The notes under the pieces were generated by a model, which was given only the letters and a program-made list of their open reading frames with translations, ran no database searches and was not told the DNA's origin. Shown piece by piece: positions 25,671 through 63,223 of a stretch of DNA of 64,000 nucleotides; position 1 is the first letter of the stretch, and every line of letters begins with the position of its first letter. A program made the translations under genes and the position numbers. Source of the DNA: Deltaproteobacteria bacterium (GTDB taxonomy: Bacteria; Myxococcota_A; Polyangia; JAAYKL01); NCBI GenBank assembly GCA_030595125.1, contig JAUVDV010000001.1, positions 1 through 64,000 of the forward strand. Direction: 5' to 3'.

Positions 25671-25746
25671 TGGTGCCTAGGGACGGAATCGAACCGCCGA
25701 CACGGGGATTTTCAGTCCCCTGCTCTACCGACTGAGCTACCTAGGC
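25671..25746 (-). tRNA. tRNA-Phe (GAA)
   Basis: 76 bases including an encoded CCA (TGG at 25671-25673 on the plus strand). Acceptor stem GCCTAGG pairs with CCTAGGC; D arm GCTC/GAGC; anticodon arm GGGGA-CTGAAAA-TCCCC with anticodon GAA; T arm GGCGG-TTCGATT-CCGTC. All four stems pair, with only small exceptions in the T stem. It lies five bases from the end of the outer-membrane protein gene. Confidence 0.97.
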
Positions 25747-49558: not shown

Positions 49559-51736
49559 ATGAAAGTTCTGAATCGAATCACTGCGGTTTCAGTTGCGGCA
49601 ATCATGATCATGATTTGCTGTGGATTGGCCCCGTCCTGCGGGGCGGGCGTGCAGGCCGTCCAGCCGGCGGCTACGGAGAGCGAAGAGATGAAATCAAACC
49701 CATTGCTAGGTGAATTCGGCACCCCGTTCGAAGTGCCGCCGTTTGACAAAATAGAGCTGCTCCACTTCAAGCCCGCCTACCTCGAGGGCATGAAAGTTGA
49801 GCAGGAGGAGATCGCAAAGATAGCCGCCCTGACCGATCCGCCCGCCTTCGCAAACACAATCGAGGCATTCGATCGATCGGGGCTGCTGCTGGCCCGTGTG
49901 GATAATATCTTCCACAACCTGAACGCCTCAACCACCAGCGACGAGATGCAGGCCGTCGCCAAGGAGGTTGCCCCGTTGCTGGCCAAGCACGCCGACGACA
50001 TTTATCTCAACCAGGAATTGTTCGCCCGGATCAAGACGATCCACGACGAGCGCGCAAAGCTGGACCTCAACTCCGAACAGGAGCGTCTGCTCGGTGAGAT
50101 CTACAGGGGCTTCGTCCGCGGTGGCGCCAACCTTCCCGCAGAAAAAAAGGAGCGCTTCAGGGCCATCAACGAGGATCTTTCGGTTGTGACCCTGCAGTTC
50201 GGTGAGAACGTGCTCAACGAGGCGAAGGCCTTCAAGCTCGTGATCGAAAACAAGGATGATCTCACCGGATTGCCCGACGCCCAGATCGACGCTGCGGCTA
50301 CCACTGCGAAGGATGCAGACCTCGCCGGTAAATGGCTGTTCACCATCGACAAGTCTTCGCTGATCCCGTTCCTTCAGTTTTCGGCCAGGCGACAGCTTCG
50401 GGAGAAGATGTTCACGGCATACATCAACCAGGGGAACCACGGGGACAAGCTCGACAACAAGGAACTCATCACGAAGATAGTGTCCCTGCGCATCGAGCGT
50501 GCCGGCATGCTCGGCTTTCAGACACACGCCGATTTCGTGCTCGACGAGAACATGGCAAAGACGCCCAAGAAGGTCTACGAGCTGCTGGATGAGGTCTGGA
50601 AGCCTGCCTCCAGGGTGGCGAAGCGCGAGGCGAAGGAGCTGTCCACGCTTGCAAAGAAAGAGGGCGGCAACTTCGAGTTGAAGCCCTGGGATTGGTGGTA
50701 CTACGCGGAGAAGCTGCGCGAGGAAAAGTACGACCTGAAGGACGAGGAGTTGAGGCCGTACTTCGAGCTGGAGAATGTGCGCAAGGGCGCCTTCGACGTG
50801 GCCACCAGGTTGTACGGAATAGAGTTCGTGGAGCGCAAAGATCTGCCGACGTACCACGAGGACGTGAGGAGCTTCGAGGTGCGCGAGGCGGACGGCGCCC
50901 ACATCGGTATTTTCTACGTGGACTACTACACCCGCAGCGGCACCAAGCGCGGCGGAGCCTGGATGAGCGCGTTTCGCAAGCAATGGGGCACGGGCGACGG
51001 AAGGGTGAGCCCGGTGATCATAAACAACTGCAACTTCCAGAAACCGGCGCAGGGGAAGCCCTCACTGCTGAGCTTCGAGGAGGTGGAGACCCTGTTCCAC
51101 GAATTCGGCCACGCGCTCCACGGCCTCCTGTCGAACAGCAACTACCGCTCCCTTTCCGGTACGTCGGTGGCGCGGGACTTCGTGGAGTTGCCTTCGCAGA
51201 TCATGGAAAACTGGGCGGGCGATCCGGAGGTGCTCGGGTTGTACGCGAAGCATCACGAGACCGGGGCGCCCATGCCGGTGGAGCTCATCGAGAAGATCCA
51301 GAAGTCCACGCTGTTCAACCAGGGCTTCACGACGGTGGAGTACCTGGCTGCGTCATATCTGGACATGGACTGGCACACCCAAAAAGAGATGACGACGCTT
51401 GATCCCATGGCGTTCGAGGATGGTGCGCTGAACAGGATCGGCCTGATCCCCGAGATTGTCGTGCGCTACCGAAGCACTTACTTCCGCCACATCTTCTCCG
51501 GGGTAGTAGCCTACTCGTCAGGTTACTATAGCTACCTCTGGTCTCAGGTGCTCGACGCCGACGCATTTGCCGCATTCAAGGAGACCGACGTTTTCGACCA
51601 GGAGAAGGCAAAGTCATTTAGGGATAACATCCTCGCGGCGGGAAACACGGCCGACCCCGCGGAATTGTACAGGCGCTTCCGCGGTAAAGAGCCTTCCATC
51701 GACGCCCTGCTGAAACGCAAGGGCATGGCGAAATAA
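49559..51736 (+). CDS. M3-family oligopeptidase/peptidyl-dipeptidase (Dcp-like) lipoprotein
   Basis: 725 residues. Signal sequence with lipobox-like LAPSC (Cys 27). The zinc-binding HEFGH motif with the catalytic Glu is at about residue 514 in TLFHEFGHALHGLLS, and NSNYRSLSGTSVARDFVELPSQIMENW follows, diagnostic of Dcp/thimet peptidases. Likely periplasmic and releases dipeptides from peptide C-termini. ATG at 49559 after AAAGGAG. Followed after one base by a small membrane protein. Confidence 0.9.
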   Translation: MKVLNRITAVSVAAIMIMICCGLAPSCGAGVQAVQPAATESEEMKSNPLLGEFGTPFEVPPFDKIELLHFKPAYLEGMKVEQEEIAKIAALTDPPAFANTIEAFDRSGLLLARVDNIFHNLNASTTSDEMQAVAKEVAPLLAKHADDIYLNQELFARIKTIHDERAKLDLNSEQERLLGEIYRGFVRGGANLPAEKKERFRAINEDLSVVTLQFGENVLNEAKAFKLVIENKDDLTGLPDAQIDAAATTAKDADLAGKWLFTIDKSSLIPFLQFSARRQLREKMFTAYINQGNHGDKLDNKELITKIVSLRIERAGMLGFQTHADFVLDENMAKTPKKVYELLDEVWKPASRVAKREAKELSTLAKKEGGNFELKPWDWWYYAEKLREEKYDLKDEELRPYFELENVRKGAFDVATRLYGIEFVERKDLPTYHEDVRSFEVREADGAHIGIFYVDYYTRSGTKRGGAWMSAFRKQWGTGDGRVSPVIINNCNFQKPAQGKPSLLSFEEVETLFHEFGHALHGLLSNSNYRSLSGTSVARDFVELPSQIMENWAGDPEVLGLYAKHHETGAPMPVELIEKIQKSTLFNQGFTTVEYLAASYLDMDWHTQKEMTTLDPMAFEDGALNRIGLIPEIVVRYRSTYFRHIFSGVVAYSSGYYSYLWSQVLDADAFAAFKETDVFDQEKAKSFRDNILAAGNTADPAELYRRFRGKEPSIDALLKRKGMAK

Positions 51737-55029: not shown

Positions 55030-56601
55030 ATGCGCGTGCTCTTTCTTTTTCCGATTCTGACTTGTACGGTGTTACTCGCGTTGCCAAACGATGCGAACGC
55101 CTGCACGGTGATCACGGTGGGCAAGGACGCGTCCACCGACGGATCGGTCATGACGTCTCACACGGTGGACAGCCACCGCACCTCCACTGATGTGCGGGTG
55201 ATGCCGCGAAAGAAGCACAAGAAGGGCGCCACCATAAAGTTGTCGAAGCGCGCCGACGACGACACCGGCCCCATGGAGCGATACGGCCGGGAGCCCATCG
55301 GCGAGATCCCCCAGGTTGCCGAAACCTACAAGTATCTGGCTCCGGCCTACGCCCCCATGAACGAATTCCAGGTGGCCGTCGGGGAGTCGACCTTCGGTGG
55401 GCGCAAGGAGCTGCGCAGCGAGAAGGGTCTCCTCGATTGCGAGACGACCCAGGCGTTGATGATGCAGCGGGCAAAGACAGCTCGCGAGGCAATACGCATC
55501 GGCGGCGCGCTCATAGAGAAATATGGCTGGATCGACGAGGGCGAGGCACTGACCGTGGTGGATGAGAACGAGGCATGGGTGATGGAGATAGTCGGTTCGG
55601 GCAAGGACGAGGTGGGGGCCATCTGGGTGGCGCAACGGGTGCCCGACGACCACGTGACCGTGAACGCAAACGCCTCGCGAATAATGGAGATCGATCTCGA
55701 CGACCCGGACAACTTCATGGGATCGAAAGACGTCATCTCGGCGGCGGTGAAGAAGGGCTACTGGGATCCCAAGGGGGGCCGACCGTTCCGGTTTGCCTAC
55801 GCCTATAATCCCACCGGGCGCACCGGCTTCGTTTCCACACGGCGGGAATGGAGAGTCTTCGATCTGCTGGCCCCCTCCCTGAAGCTCGACCCCAACAGCA
55901 ACGATTTCCCATTCTCCATCAAGCCGGAGGAGAAGGTGAGCGCACGCAGGATAATGGAGATATTTCGCGACACCTACGAGGGCACCGACTTTGACCTGAC
56001 AGACAAGTTCACGGTGACCGACGAAGAGACCGGCAAGACAATCAAGAGCCCGCTGGCCAACCCCTTCATGTCATACGACGCCGACAAGCTGTTCAAGATG
56101 AACGGCGGCTGGGGCTGGCGGGGAGAGCGGACCATCGCGCGGTGGTACACAATGTACGTGGTGATCACCCAATCCCGATCGTGGTTGCCCGATCCGGTAG
56201 GCGGCATCGTGTGGTTCGGCTACGACAACACCGCCATGACCACCTACGTGCCGTTTTACATCGGGATCACCGACGTGCCCGACGACTACAAGACCGACGG
56301 ACGCACGACAGGCTTCTCGCGGGACAACGCCTGGTGGGCCTTCAATCGGGTGGGGACAATCGCAGCCCACCGGTGGGGGGACATGCGAGCCGACGTGGCG
56401 CGAGTGCGGGATCCCATGCAAAAGCAGATGCTTGAGCAAATCGCGGAGCTGGACGAAACGGCAAAGAAGCTCCACGCGAAGAACCCGAAAGCCGCCGGCA
56501 GATATCTTACCAAATACGTCAAGAAGGCCTGCAAGACGGTGGTGGACACCTACTGGCGACTCGGTGATCACCTCTGGAACAAGTACGACGAAAAATGGTA
56601 G
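55030..56601 (+). CDS. Secreted C69-family dipeptidase (Ntn-hydrolase)
   Basis: 523 residues. A signal peptide ends NDANA directly before Cys 25 (CTVITVGKDASTDGSVM), so signal peptidase cleavage would expose the N-terminal Cys nucleophile required for Ntn-type activity. RSEKGLLDCETT and VVDENEAWVMEIVGSGK are typical of C69 peptidases. ATG at 55030. Likely periplasmic and active on dipeptides. The next gene overlaps its last bases. Confidence 0.88.
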   Translation: MRVLFLFPILTCTVLLALPNDANACTVITVGKDASTDGSVMTSHTVDSHRTSTDVRVMPRKKHKKGATIKLSKRADDDTGPMERYGREPIGEIPQVAETYKYLAPAYAPMNEFQVAVGESTFGGRKELRSEKGLLDCETTQALMMQRAKTAREAIRIGGALIEKYGWIDEGEALTVVDENEAWVMEIVGSGKDEVGAIWVAQRVPDDHVTVNANASRIMEIDLDDPDNFMGSKDVISAAVKKGYWDPKGGRPFRFAYAYNPTGRTGFVSTRREWRVFDLLAPSLKLDPNSNDFPFSIKPEEKVSARRIMEIFRDTYEGTDFDLTDKFTVTDEETGKTIKSPLANPFMSYDADKLFKMNGGWGWRGERTIARWYTMYVVITQSRSWLPDPVGGIVWFGYDNTAMTTYVPFYIGITDVPDDYKTDGRTTGFSRDNAWWAFNRVGTIAAHRWGDMRADVARVRDPMQKQMLEQIAELDETAKKLHAKNPKAAGRYLTKYVKKACKTVVDTYWRLGDHLWNKYDEKW

Positions 56602-57299
56602 GCCACTCACCAGGAGCCAAGGGAATCGCACTTCCCGCCTGGATCTGGATCTTTATAGCCATAGTCGGTGGTTCATTGTTTCATGTTGTAATCCATCATC
56701 ACTACCACGGTGTGATCAACGTTCACCAGATTGCCCTGGCCTTCTTTCTGGTCCTGAATGTCTTGATTAACTTCTGGGAAATCGGACTCCTTGTCTGTCG
56801 CGACACGATTCGTAAGGAGTATGAAGCAACCCATGAGAGCTACAAGGGTCGGGAAACAGCCCGGGCTGACCAGCTGTTTTCGCGACGAATCCCCATACTC
56901 AAGCCATTGTTTTTTTCGCAATGGACAGGCATCTGGTCAACCTATGCGCTCTTTGATCCCGGTTACGTCCAGCGAAACTCATTTGGTTTTATTATCGACG
57001 TGGGCAACGGTGTCACGACACTGGTTCCCGCAGCGCTTTTCGCGTTCGGGATGACCTTCCCCATGATGCCTGCACGCGTTCTGGGCATCATAGGTGTGAT
57101 GATGTTCTGGCAGATGTTCTACGGAACGATCTTGTACTTCTTTCAGTTCTTTTTCTCCAGACGCCATGTCGGTCATTCCCGCAAGAACATTGTTCTCTTT
57201 GTCGGCGCCACAAATGGCATGTGGTTCATCTTTCCGATCTGGGGCATGATCGTGTCCGTCTGGATGATACTCCAGAATTCGTACACAATTTTCTCGTAG
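56595..57299 (+). CDS. Multi-pass membrane protein of unknown function
   Basis: 234 residues with about six or seven hydrophobic helices (IWIFIAIVGGSLFHVVIHHH, IALAFFLVLNVLINFWEIGLLV, VTTLVPAALFAFGMTF, MFWQMFYGTILYFFQFFF and others). A His-rich loop VVIHHHYHGV lies near the first helix. No motif I recognise. It overlaps the C69 peptidase end by seven bases. Confidence 0.6.
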   Translation: MVGHSPGAKGIALPAWIWIFIAIVGGSLFHVVIHHHYHGVINVHQIALAFFLVLNVLINFWEIGLLVCRDTIRKEYEATHESYKGRETARADQLFSRRIPILKPLFFSQWTGIWSTYALFDPGYVQRNSFGFIIDVGNGVTTLVPAALFAFGMTFPMMPARVLGIIGVMMFWQMFYGTILYFFQFFFSRRHVGHSRKNIVLFVGATNGMWFIFPIWGMIVSVWMILQNSYTIFS

Positions 57300-57393: not shown

Positions 57394-58410
57394 CTACCAG
57401 GTCCTCCCCTCCTCCCGGTCGGTCATCAGTATGCCGTTGATGTGGTCGTATTCGTGTAACCACACCTTGGCGTCGAAGTCCTCGAGGTCATAGTTCTCGA
57501 CATGGTCACCTTCGGGCGTGTCAAACTCCACTGCTATCCACGCCGGGCGGCCGACGAAACTCGACACTCCATCTATCGAGAGGCACCCCTCTGCATAGCC
57601 GTAATACAGATCGTCCTGTGCCCAGTCGACGATCCTCGGGTTGACGAACACCCGCTGCTCGCTGTTCACGTCGGCGGCGAACATCCGTCTCCCCACCGCT
57701 ACCTGGGGCGCCGCGAGCCCCACGGCGCCGAGCGGGAACTGGGAGTCCAGCAGCTTGAGCGCAAAAGCGCCCACCTCCGGGTCGTCAGGGCGCACCGGGA
57801 TGGAGATATTGTAGAGCGTGCTGTCTGGATCGTCCCAGTCCTTGACCAGGTTCGACTCCAGGAACGCGTCTTCGCCCCCCGCGTGCATCGCCGCCAATTC
57901 CGACGTTGACAGATCTGCGGTGACCTCAGGATCGTACTCCTCGTCGAACGGCGTGTCGTCCACGGTGAAACCAAAAACGAAATCCTCGGCCAACCGGATC
58001 TCGGGATCGCCGGCCAGGGCCGCGCCGGCGACGATCGTTACCTCGTGCTGTTCGGCGGGAGCCCACACGGGGAAGGGTACAAAGCGGAACTCCCGGTTGC
58101 CCGCCTCATTAGTAAAATAGGGCCGAGCCCGAACCGGCTCCCCGTCGACGAGGACGACCACCGTCTCCGGATCTACGTAGTCCTGCTCCGGGGGCGCCCC
58201 GGAGAAGAGAATATGGATCTTCTGGTTAATCTGAACCACCGCGCCGTCTTCGGGCTCGTGGGCTTCGACGAAGAGGCCATCCGTGTCGATTTCAGTCTCG
58301 GTATCGCCGCCGTCGACTGCGTCGCTTTCCCCCTCCTCGGCGCACGAGGACGCCCAGAAGATCGCCAGGCAGCACAGGAAAGTCGTATAATCCGTATAAC
58401 GATGTGTCAT
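57394..58410 (-). CDS. Exported peptide deformylase-domain lipoprotein
   Basis: 338 residues from the ATG at 58410, whose 5' side carries repeat copy C. An N-terminal signal with a lipobox-like WASSC (Cys 23) precedes an acidic linker, an Ig-like domain (about 45-150, GLFVEAHEPEDGAVVQI, Big_5-like) and a complete peptide deformylase domain: GLAAPQ (231-236), EGCLS (274-278) and HEYDH (319-323). All three catalytic motifs and metal ligands are intact. Deformylases act on cytoplasmic nascent chains, so an exported one is unexpected. It could act on exported N-formyl peptides or a new substrate. Confidence 0.88.
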   Translation of the reverse strand: MTHRYTDYTTFLCCLAIFWASSCAEEGESDAVDGGDTETEIDTDGLFVEAHEPEDGAVVQINQKIHILFSGAPPEQDYVDPETVVVLVDGEPVRARPYFTNEAGNREFRFVPFPVWAPAEQHEVTIVAGAALAGDPEIRLAEDFVFGFTVDDTPFDEEYDPEVTADLSTSELAAMHAGGEDAFLESNLVKDWDDPDSTLYNISIPVRPDDPEVGAFALKLLDSQFPLGAVGLAAPQVAVGRRMFAADVNSEQRVFVNPRIVDWAQDDLYYGYAEGCLSIDGVSSFVGRPAWIAVEFDTPEGDHVENYDLEDFDAKVWLHEYDHINGILMTDREEGRTW

Positions 58411-58437
58411 AATTGAGGTATTATATCTTAAGATGAG
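58411..58437 (-). promoter_or_regulatory. Promoter-like copy C of the dispersed repeat
   Basis: Read on the minus strand CTCATCTTAAGATATAATACCT (here 58416-58437) matches copy B's CTCATCTTAAGATATAGTACCT in 21 of 22 bases and contains TATAAT. It leads straight to the deformylase lipoprotein start at 58410. The hairpin of copies A and B is absent here. On the other strand it lies just before the LarA-like gene. Confidence 0.55.
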
Positions 58438-58447
58438 GTTGGGAGTG

Positions 58448-59836
58448 ATGAAATCCGCACAAATCAACTTTGGGCAAACCGAGGTCCTCATCCAATTGCC
58501 CGACGAAGTGGAAATCCTTTCCATGAAGTCGCCTGCGGTGTTGTCCGATCCTGCGCAGGCCATTCAAGACGCATTGCAGCATTGTATCGGCACCGCGAGC
58601 CTGGAAAGTATCATCACCTCTAAATTGCAGGCCAAGCCCGATGCAAATGCCGTAATCGTAATCTCAGACAATACCCGGCCGGTCCCATACCGGGGAGAGA
58701 ATGGGATTCTACGGCCAATCGTGGACAAGCTACTTGGAGCGGGAATCCCGCCAGACCGGATTATGATTCTGGTAGCAACCGGAACGCACAATCCTGTTCC
58801 GGAAGCAATGTTGCGGGAAATGCTTGACCCAGGAATTTTCGAAAAGGGCATTACCATCAAGAACCACAACTGCGTGGACCAGAGTTCTCTCGTTCACCTT
58901 GGTAAAAGCGATTGCGGCAACAAGATGGTGGTGAACCGCGATTATGTGCGAGCCGACATCAAGATCATCACAGGGTTGGTCGAAAGTCATTTCATGGCCG
59001 GGGCCTCGGGGGGACGCAAGGCCATTTGCCCGGGGCTTATTGGCGAGGAAAGTACATTTGTATTCCATGGTGCCAGGATTCTGGATGATCCATTGTCACG
59101 CGATTTGGTTTTGGTCGGGAATCCCTGCCACGAAGAAGCTGTGCAAATAGCCGAAGCTGCCGGCTGTGATTTTTCAGTGAATGTAACGCTTAACGAAAAA
59201 TACGAGTTGACGGGCGTTTTTGCCGGCGATTTGCTTGGGCCGCACCAGCATGCAGTCAATAAAATCCGCGAATATGTCACGATCCCCATACAGGAAGAAT
59301 ACGATATCGTGATTTCACACGCGGGCTTTGTGGGTATCAATCATTACCAGGCAGCCAAGGCTGCCGTGGTGGCCATTCCTGCGATCAGGCGGGGCGGCAA
59401 GATGATTCTGGTGGCGAATACCACGGATGTGGATCCGGTAGGGAGCGGGCGGTATCGAAGCGTGCTCAAATTCCTCAAGCAACTGGGGCCGGAAAAATTC
59501 CGCCGGCTCATTTTGTCCGACACGTGGGAGTTTGTGCCCGATCAGTGGGAGGCGCAAATGTGGGCGCGTTTGTTTAGCAAGACACCGGCAGAGAATTTCG
59601 TGTTTTACGCGCCACAGCTGAAGGTCGAGGATTTCAGTATTCTCTCGGGGGTCGATGGGAACGTTTTCCTTCCTGGCGAACGGCAATATCAAGACAGCCT
59701 GGAGAATATCCCTTTTGTTGTGGAACAGGCGCTTCGCAAGATCGTTGCGGACCTGCGGGGCCAAGGAGTGGCCAATCCGCGCATTGCTTTTCTGGTGGAT
59801 GGGCCCTATGGGGTTCCGGTGAAAGTGGAAAGGTGA
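58448..59836 (+). CDS. LarA-like lactate racemase family protein (DUF2088)
   Basis: 462 residues from the ATG at 58448 (GGGAG and AGG upstream); an ATG at 58433 would add five. The nickel-pincer ligands are in place: His 114 in ATGTHNPVPE, His 181 in ESHFMAGASGG, Lys 191 in GGRKAICPG and His 207 in FVFHGARI, with the same spacing as in Lactiplantibacillus LarA (H108, H174, K184, H200, from memory). SDNTRPVPY is also conserved. No larB/C/E genes are in the window. Composition is less GC-biased than the neighbours. Substrate of such homologues varies; racemase activity is inferred. Confidence 0.8.
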   Translation: MKSAQINFGQTEVLIQLPDEVEILSMKSPAVLSDPAQAIQDALQHCIGTASLESIITSKLQAKPDANAVIVISDNTRPVPYRGENGILRPIVDKLLGAGIPPDRIMILVATGTHNPVPEAMLREMLDPGIFEKGITIKNHNCVDQSSLVHLGKSDCGNKMVVNRDYVRADIKIITGLVESHFMAGASGGRKAICPGLIGEESTFVFHGARILDDPLSRDLVLVGNPCHEEAVQIAEAAGCDFSVNVTLNEKYELTGVFAGDLLGPHQHAVNKIREYVTIPIQEEYDIVISHAGFVGINHYQAAKAAVVAIPAIRRGGKMILVANTTDVDPVGSGRYRSVLKFLKQLGPEKFRRLILSDTWEFVPDQWEAQMWARLFSKTPAENFVFYAPQLKVEDFSILSGVDGNVFLPGERQYQDSLENIPFVVEQALRKIVADLRGQGVANPRIAFLVDGPYGVPVKVER

Positions 59837-59910: not shown

Positions 59911-59976
59911 CAGACACATTTGTCGAAGTAACATCACGTAATAAAAGAAGAATAAAAGTGACTGGCACCGTTTCAG
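59911..59976. repeat. Direct repeat, right copy
   Basis: CAGACACATTTGTCGAAGTA and the following AGAATAAAAGTGACTGGCAC and CGTTT match the left copy at 57324-57387 closely. A Poly-G run (59975-59984) follows. The two copies frame a segment of about 2.5 kb holding the exported deformylase and LarA-like genes. Confidence 0.7.
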
Positions 59977-61199: not shown

Positions 61200-61997
61200 A
61201 TGCATGTGAGAGCGCTGATCATAGTCATCGGATTTTCTCTGGTCGTGCCGGTCATGGCCGGAGCGAGTGAAGAGGATGGAGACGACCCGCATTCGGTCGG
61301 CAGGAACGGATATTTTCTCCAGTTCGGCTGGGATGCCGGGGCGGATCTGTTTGCTGGCGTCGGCCAGATCGGGCTGCATCGCAGTCGAGCGGACGAGTTT
61401 TTCGGCATTTTCCAATTCGCTATCTGGCAGAGTTACGCAAGAAACTTCATTGGCCTTCTCCAGATCGGCGCCTGGAACGTGGAGCAGGACCTGTTCATCG
61501 GCGTACTCCAGCTCGGCGCGTACAACGAGGCACGCCGGGAGCTGTACGCCCTGGCCCAGGTGGGCGTTTACAACGAAGTAACTCGCGCCTATGTGGGAGG
61601 TCTGATGATCGGCGTGGTCAACCGTACCGGCGACGGGGACATTCTGGGTCCGAGCCAGTTTGGGGTGGTCAACATCGCCGACGATATCTACTCCATCCTC
61701 GGTCAGTACGGGGTCTACAACAAGGCCGGCGATAACTTCGTGGGCATTCTCCAGTTCGGGCTCTACAACTTCGCCGGGCGATTCATCGGCATTGCCCAGG
61801 TGGGAGTCGTCAATCGCTTCTACGAATACGGGGGGCTGTTGCAGGTTGGGGTGGTCAACTTCGCCAGCGAGATAAACGGGGCCCAGATCGGACTCGTCAA
61901 CCACACCCTGGAGCTGCACGGTTTCCAGATCGGTCTGGTCAACCTGAGCCGCAAGGGTGGGCTTCCGTTCATGCCGTTCGTAAACGCCGGGTTTTAA
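61200..61997 (+). CDS. Repeat-containing surface protein (LA_2272-like)
   Basis: 265 residues with a signal peptide (about 1-22, VVPVMAGA). The mature part is built of about nine repeats of roughly 20 residues with a GLxQIGxxN or GVVN pattern (FIGLLQIGAWNV, FIGVLQLGAYNE, LMIGVVNRTGD, ILQFGLYNFAGR, IAQVGVVNRFYE, QIGLVN), reminiscent of the LA_2272-type surface repeats. Start ATG at 61200 with AAGAGGTG upstream. Likely outer membrane or surface; function unknown. Confidence 0.65.
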   Translation: MHVRALIIVIGFSLVVPVMAGASEEDGDDPHSVGRNGYFLQFGWDAGADLFAGVGQIGLHRSRADEFFGIFQFAIWQSYARNFIGLLQIGAWNVEQDLFIGVLQLGAYNEARRELYALAQVGVYNEVTRAYVGGLMIGVVNRTGDGDILGPSQFGVVNIADDIYSILGQYGVYNKAGDNFVGILQFGLYNFAGRFIGIAQVGVVNRFYEYGGLLQVGVVNFASEINGAQIGLVNHTLELHGFQIGLVNLSRKGGLPFMPFVNAGF

Positions 61998-62098: not shown

Positions 62099-63223
62099 AT
62101 GAGATTATTCGTTATGATTATCGTCTCGTTGCTCGTCGCGGCGGCGGCTCCGGGTTGTGGCGATTCGGACAGAGAAGATAACAGCGACGGCACAGACACG
62201 GACACGGACACAGACACAGACACGGACACGGACACAGACACGGACACGGACACCGACACAGACACAGACACGGACACAGACACGGACACCAACCCCGATG
62301 GCTGCGAGGGGGTCGACTTCCTTTTCATGGTCGACAACTCCATCTCTATGGAGGATGAGCAGCAGAACCTGATCGACAGTTTCCCCGGCCTGATCTCTGC
62401 TATCACCGAAACCCTTCAACTCGACGACTTCCACATCATGGTGGTGGATTCCGATTCCATCTACACATCGCCGAGCGAGTGGGAGACCCACGCCTGCACC
62501 AGCGCCGGATGCTGCGCCACCTGGTGTGGCACGGTGCCGGACTATTACGACTGCACAGAGACCGGCGTCGCTCCGTATTACTCCTGCGCCGAGTGGCTCC
62601 TGGGCGATACGACCTCACCCGACTGCGACTCATTGCTCGGGGCCGGTCACCTCGGCAGCAACACCGGAACCACATGCGTGATCGATGGGGATAATCGCTA
62701 CCTCATCGAAGGCCAGACCGATCTGAACGACGCGTTCGCCTGCATCGCGGACGTGGGCACTGACGGCAATGGTAACGAGCGGATGATGGAGGCGATGGTC
62801 AACGCGGTCGGCGTATTCAACGAGCCCGACGGATGTAATGAGGCCTTCATCCGGGACGAGGCAGTGCTCGTCGTGACGTTCATCACCGATGAGGACGAGG
62901 CCTGCACCGCAATCGGCGAGGAGTGCTCACAGGGGAACGCAATGACCTGGAAGCAGGCGCTGGTCGATGCCAAGGGCGGCAACGAGGAGGCCGTCGTGCT
63001 GCTGGGAATATTTGGCGATATCGGGCAACCGGGGGAAATTTGCGATCCGCTCGATCCCTACTCGGGGGCTGGCGCCGAGGCAGCGCCGTTGCTCAACGCC
63101 CTGGTCGATTCTTTCGGCGACAGGGGACACTTCTGCAGCGTCTGCCTGGCCGATTACACTGATTGCTTCCTCGAGGCGGTGAGCATCATCGAGATGGCAT
63201 GCGATGACCTGGTAATCGAGTGA
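62099..63223 (+). CDS. Lipoprotein with a von Willebrand factor A-like domain and Thr-Asp repeat
   Basis: 374 residues. Lipobox AAAPGC (Cys 20), then a repeat of 16 Thr-Asp units (DNA 62192-62287), then a VWA-like domain starting FLFMVDNSISMEDEQQN with the MIDAS DxSxS motif. Numerous cysteines (TSAGCCATWC, CSVCLADYTDC) suggest disulfides and an extracellular fold. Probably a surface protein. Its GTGA end overlaps the following antitoxin fragment. Confidence 0.8.
   Translation: MRLFVMIIVSLLVAAAAPGCGDSDREDNSDGTDTDTDTDTDTDTDTDTDTDTDTDTDTDTDTDTNPDGCEGVDFLFMVDNSISMEDEQQNLIDSFPGLISAITETLQLDDFHIMVVDSDSIYTSPSEWETHACTSAGCCATWCGTVPDYYDCTETGVAPYYSCAEWLLGDTTSPDCDSLLGAGHLGSNTGTTCVIDGDNRYLIEGQTDLNDAFACIADVGTDGNGNERMMEAMVNAVGVFNEPDGCNEAFIRDEAVLVVTFITDEDEACTAIGEECSQGNAMTWKQALVDAKGGNEEAVVLLGIFGDIGQPGEICDPLDPYSGAGAEAAPLLNALVDSFGDRGHFCSVCLADYTDCFLEAVSIIEMACDDLVIE
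62192..62287 (+). repeat. Sixteen ACNGAC hexamers (Thr-Asp repeat)
   Basis: A perfect tandem repeat of the hexamer ACNGAC, 96 bases, encoding 16 Thr-Asp pairs in the VWA lipoprotein. Third bases of the Thr codon alternate irregularly (ACA, ACG, one ACC). Hexamer slippage would change the linker length without shifting the frame, so it could be variable between strains. Confidence 0.9.

Follow-up and report, generated by a model that had tools for sequence, protein, structure and literature searches.

A predicted exported lipoprotein branch of the peptide deformylase family, seen from a gene of a deltaproteobacterial contig

Deformylation is regarded as a co-translational step of the cytoplasm, and the plant and mitochondrial peptide deformylases (PDFs) of the PDF1A and PDF1B types carry an N-terminal targeting sequence ahead of the PDF domain. 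A 2025 survey of accessory PDFs, a group that includes Def2 of Vibrio cholerae and enzymes borne by integrons and plasmids, found more than one PDF in 48% of species and tied the accessory copies to actinonin tolerance (PMC12690207). Because these accessory enzymes are said to sustain growth when the canonical copy is gone, they would act in the cytoplasm, and a text search of the main text of that survey gave no mention of an exported, signal-bearing or lipoprotein PDF (PMC12690207). Cytoplasmic deformylation is blocked by SRP binding, and it has been argued that N-out membrane proteins retain fMet outside the cytosol (Ranjan et al., 2017; PMC5454389); they are thought to keep the formyl group because no PDF gets to them (PMC5454389). 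No paper on a secreted, periplasmic or exported deformylase was found in a literature search that was run without most subscription journals, which leaves novelty unproven.

The DNA analysed here (the window) is the first 64,000 nucleotides of contig JAUVDV010000001.1 of a Deltaproteobacteria bacterium. A sequence-only reading had placed in it, at 57394-58410, an exported lipoprotein with an intact PDF active site. The coordinates proved correct for an open reading frame on the minus strand, and the protein is very probably a PDF-family lipoprotein that is exported, as judged from its sequence. Its features are as follows.

57394..58410, minus strand: gene of the predicted exported lipoprotein PDF, 338 aa (open reading frame; PF01327 E 5e-27)
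58345..58410, minus strand: predicted signal sequence, residues 1-22, MTHRYTDYTTFLCCLAIFWASS (hydrophobic segment followed by a lipobox; agrees with the PS51257-like rule)
58342..58344, minus strand: Cys23 of the lipobox, where lipidation is predicted (conserved throughout an alignment of 21 exported PDFs)
57964..58287, minus strand: weak Ig-like (Big_5) region, residues 42-149 (PF13205 E 0.009, sub-threshold; low AlphaFold2 confidence)
57415..57831, minus strand: peptide deformylase domain, residues 194-332 (PF01327; AlphaFold2)
57703..57723, minus strand: motif I VGLAAPQ, residues 230-236, Gln236 corresponding to E. coli Gln50 (alignment)
57577..57591, minus strand: motif II EGCLS, residues 274-278, Cys276 corresponding to the metal ligand Cys90 (alignment)
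57442..57456, minus strand: motif III HEYDH, residues 319-323, with His319, Glu320 and His323 (alignment)

The protein, which begins MTHRYTDYTTFLCCLAIFWASSCAEEG from an ATG at 58410, is laid out as a signal sequence, the lipobox Cys23, an acidic linker, a weak Ig-like domain and a complete PDF domain. Its N-terminus, MTHRYTDYTTFLCCLAIFWASS followed by Cys23 and with Arg4, agrees with a PS51257-like lipoprotein rule (a signal sequence with lipobox and the Cys within positions 15-35), so that the signal sequence and lipobox-like Cys named by the earlier reading hold. The ATG has no clear Shine-Dalgarno sequence; an in-frame start farther upstream would put coding sequence antisense to a LarA-like gene, which begins at 58433, only 22 bp away.

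In its catalytic part the protein resembles bacterial Def (PF01327, TIGR00079) in fold, in all three motifs, in the metal ligands and in the catalytic Glu. It scores 94.7 bits against PF01327, where the Pfam gathering cut-off is 22.8, and 77.8 bits against the NCBIfam Def equivalog TIGR00079, where the cut-off is 103.95, and is therefore not classed with the equivalogs of cytoplasmic Def. When aligned to an E. coli Def sequence used as a ruler, it has equivalents of Gln50, Glu88, Cys90, Leu91, His132, Glu133 and His136, so that the metal ligands (one Cys and two His) and the catalytic Glu are all intact. VGLAAPQ, EGCLSI and HEYDHING match the updated motifs of the accessory PDF survey (PMC12690207), and two positions depart from the older strict forms, with A for the first G of motif I and L for Q in motif III, the latter being the Leu before His319 where Gln is usual. 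Pocket-lining positions are unlike those of E. coli Def in the alignment, and the surroundings of His319 resemble the R/K-V/I pattern of Thermotoga maritima and PDF1A-type enzymes. The nearest PDB sequence is the T. maritima PDF (1lme), and PDF1A chains are among the nearest PDB sequences to the exported profile. AlphaFold2, with an input alignment made of rows from the window and related loci only, predicts a PDF fold with a domain pLDDT of about 95 from residue 200 on, which Foldseek superposes on 1lme at 1.3 Å over 138 columns. From the conserved site we infer that the protein is probably an active peptide deformylase.

It departs from bacterial Def by adding a signal peptide, a lipobox and an extra N-terminal region, and by its low equivalog score and shortened C-terminus: the chain terminates 15 residues past HEYDH and thus has no room for the long C-terminal ribosome-binding helix. 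The Ig-like domain of the earlier reading stands in part: residues 42-149 are tentatively Ig-like on the Big_5 match, which reaches 17.2 bits against a cut-off of 23.6 (E 0.009, the best among aligned members being 0.001) and thus stays below the Pfam threshold, and AlphaFold2 confidence is low for most of the protein ahead of residue 190, this region included.

The genome holds three PDFs, namely a 166-aa Def adjoining fmt, the window gene and a second exported PDF on another contig (L083:8447-9241, G000 contig C75). Since an ordinary cytoplasmic def is kept beside fmt, the window gene is not a mis-started essential def, a reading that was thereby ruled out. The window PDF thus shares with the accessory PDFs of the survey that it is an extra enzyme beside a canonical one, and differs from them in that those, by their described support of growth in the absence of that enzyme, would act in the cytoplasm (PMC12690207) and, in the case of the integron and plasmid enzymes, in that mobility of its gene is not supported. 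The N-terminus of the second exported PDF, MKRRDFLTITSTAGAAVLAGC, is a twin-arginine signal with a lipobox, and TatC is present in the genome. This gene has orthologues in both other genus members sampled, gave no match covering 80% of its length among plasmid records, and also carries a C-terminal extension.

Signal-bearing homologues, which the sequence-only reading had suggested looking for together with a canonical def and a predicted structure, were found, as were the other two. The lipoprotein rule, with any in-frame start allowed, holds for 22 of 155 distinct PDFs collected, a figure that is not a population frequency because the sample was gathered by inspecting top-scoring matches, first of the window protein and afterwards of the exported profile; a shuffle and an outside set serve as controls. 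Shuffling of upstream codons gave agreement with the rule in a mean of 0.5% per PDF, or about 0.8 expected among 155. In the outside control set, made up of 78 generic PDFs among the matches listed from a genome-collection contig scan with the exported alignment, none agreed with it (0/78); one genome of that set, G447, holds a lipoprotein PDF in another gene. Six further loci (L039, L046, L081, L182, L181 and L184) have plainly lipoprotein-like N-termini though they miss the strict rule. All 21 exported PDFs that were aligned share the lipobox Cys, and both Sec and Tat signals occur in the clade. The predicted exported, lipid-anchored form recurs in dozens of related genes. Its distribution is patchy and accessory: among 96 relatives at least 19 have an exported PDF, as do at least 15 among 379 genomes sampled from the bacterium's own phylum. 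Apart from synteny among near relatives, no neighbour gene is conserved across families beside the exported PDFs.

Nearly all exported PDFs form one clade apart from cytoplasmic def. They grouped in a first maximum-likelihood tree (90/88) and formed a 25-row clade in a wider one (100/99), whose sole unlabelled row, L181, likewise has a signal, MIRVALFLLAGC. The window PDF and its orthologue in genome G002 sit on a long branch in both trees. A second, smaller exported group (L082, L184, L192) lies inside a PDF1A-like group, in the rest of which no signal was seen; this means at least one further gain or loss of export. The PDF1A-like lipoprotein of genome G079 had fallen in the main clade in the first tree, a placement given up when wider sampling moved it to the separate small group. 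Spread was examined in the own-phylum samples and in one Bacteroidales family, three genomes of which hold lipoprotein PDFs (L245, L246 and L230, the last via the record Bacteroidales bacterium bin.687). The one Bacteroidales exported PDF placed in a tree lies inside the exported clade (91/90). Among 148 genomes sampled from the phylum of these Bacteroidales genomes, no match had a score like those of the exported PDFs from the own phylum, which is no measure of frequency because the Bacteroidales exported PDFs score no higher than ordinary PDFs. In the exported PDFs of L245, L246 and L230, motif II reads DGCLS, with Asp replacing the Glu before GCLS.

The surroundings of the window gene include the following features.

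58433..59836, plus strand: divergent LarA-like gene (nickel-pincer racemase family; PF09861 E 7e-45), beside the PDF gene in G002 too
55030..56601, plus strand: neighbouring exported peptidase C69 (PF03577 E 9e-71), signal ending ANA before Cys
49559..51736, plus strand: nearby peptidase M3 (PF01432 E 6e-135) with an N-terminal hydrophobic signal-like segment
57366..57381, plus strand: first copy of AAAAGTGACTGGCACC, a dispersed repeat, located downstream of the PDF gene (exact-copy genome search)
59954..59969, plus strand: second copy of AAAAGTGACTGGCACC, downstream of the LarA-like gene (exact-copy genome search)

The G002 orthologue is 93% identical and syntenic, and in both genomes the PDF and LarA-like genes adjoin one another close to the C69 peptidase gene. 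The gene is under purifying selection, with a dN/dS of 0.164 between the two orthologues; by part, and from small counts throughout, the ratio is 0.169 for the PDF domain, 0.101 for the Ig-like region and 0.335 for the signal and linker. The gene between C69 and PDF differs, encoding a 234-aa membrane protein in the window (56595-57299) and a 132-aa lipoprotein in G002 (L063:10055-10453). Further along the window are a 265-aa protein with a signal peptide, short repeats of the GLLQIG / VGVVN type and no Pfam match (61200-61997, plus strand), and a lipoprotein with a long Thr-Asp repeat linker (62099-63223, plus strand); several lipoproteins of the genome have (TD/SD)n linkers of this kind.

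The earlier suggestion that the gene sits in a possible mobile segment did not survive, because the locus is syntenic in G002, where the repeats are absent, and because the direct repeats flanking it belong to a dispersed element; a mobile cassette was ruled out on the same grounds. AAAAGTGACTGGCACC has 31 exact copies genome-wide (reversed control, 0), which are intergenic and often in clusters of the same orientation. No recombinase was seen among the neighbour genes scanned with Pfam, and the sole tRNA of the window lies far off, at 25671. A 311-aa ORF without a Pfam match lies between two repeat copies elsewhere (L220:2392-3327, minus strand; G000 C173, about 87891-88826) and is a possible associated transposase; with regard to a REP transposase for the repeat, Y1_Tnp genes exist in the genome, in other places.

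If exported, the PDF would be lipidated at Cys23 and anchored in the envelope, exposed either to the periplasm or at the surface. An N-terminal targeting sequence ahead of the PDF domain is also what the organelle-targeted PDF1A and PDF1B enzymes have, but those reach compartments that contain ribosomes, whereas the window PDF would go away from them. An intact site in the envelope means that formylated N-termini are needed there; the earlier argument for a substrate away from the ribosome follows in the same way, and a published candidate is the fMet of N-out membrane proteins (PMC5454389). The earlier reading's own candidates were exported N-formyl peptides, formylated envelope compounds and signals of competitors. 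On the strength of the retained catalytic residues, the protein probably deformylates fMet peptides in the envelope, stripping formyl from N-formyl-methionine peptides or protein N-termini missed by the cytoplasmic enzyme. Besides N-out membrane proteins, candidate substrates would be signal-peptide fragments and possibly peptides of lysed neighbours, and once deblocked the peptides would be open to exported peptidases, for example those of the nearby C69 and M3 genes.

The purpose may be peptide turnover, an assignment we hold tentatively. Formyl removal ahead of peptidases would be a simple role that matches a patchy, accessory distribution, and it is supported by the exported peptidases nearby and by an S9-like hydrolase elsewhere: such a domain occurs in a lipoprotein encoded next to the exported PDF in two members of another family. 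It is weakened by the want of a neighbour conserved across families and by the orientation of the nearby peptidase genes, which are convergent with the PDF gene and not co-operonic.

The same substrates could serve envelope quality control, in which the PDF would specifically complete the N-termini of endogenous N-out membrane proteins and of cleaved signal peptides, with nutrition uninvolved. SRP substrates of N-out topology do hold fMet beyond the reach of the cytosolic PDF (PMC5454389), but housekeeping on universal substrates should be spread more widely than the counts given above, and no exported methionine aminopeptidase partner was identified among the four M24 genes, which makes this role unlikely. 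Reuse of the fold as an exported metallo-amidase, acting for example on a different N-acyl peptide or on an envelope sugar that carries formyl, would suit the long branch, the altered pocket-lining positions and the score under the Def equivalog cut-off; it is improbable given that every catalytic residue is retained and that His319 lies in surroundings like those of T. maritima and PDF1A-type enzymes. That the envelope PDF acts as a decoy or sponge, keeping actinonin and other PDF inhibitors from the cytoplasmic enzyme by binding them first, is very unlikely: accessory PDFs do reduce actinonin susceptibility (PMC12690207) and hydroxamate binding likewise requires an intact metal site, but published resistance comes from altered active enzymes in the cytoplasm, and no antibiotic or resistance context was seen near the gene. 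A signal sequence that is an artefact of annotation or assembly, leaving the protein cytoplasmic, would agree with the lack of a clear Shine-Dalgarno sequence and with the Phe at -2 of the lipobox in the G002 orthologue, but is highly improbable against a chance rate of about 0.5% per PDF, a clade in which every member read bears a signal, Tat motifs in other members, the same N-terminus in an independent genome and the presence of a canonical def.

Taken together, the original observation is confirmed and widened from one gene to a clade, a branch of the PDF family whose members are predicted to be exported lipoproteins. It is doubtful that undescribed envelope-anchored deformylases of several phyla set the N-formyl state of membrane-protein N-termini and released peptides, and hence the formyl peptides displayed outside the cell. 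Exported PDFs point to an unsuspected removal of formyl outside the cytoplasm; such a clade would overturn the assumption that N-out proteins stay beyond the reach of PDF and would offer a direct handle on the roles of retained formyl groups in bacteria. There would be consequences too for formyl-peptide signals, which are read by animal immune cells, and for the places where PDF-inhibitor drugs bind.
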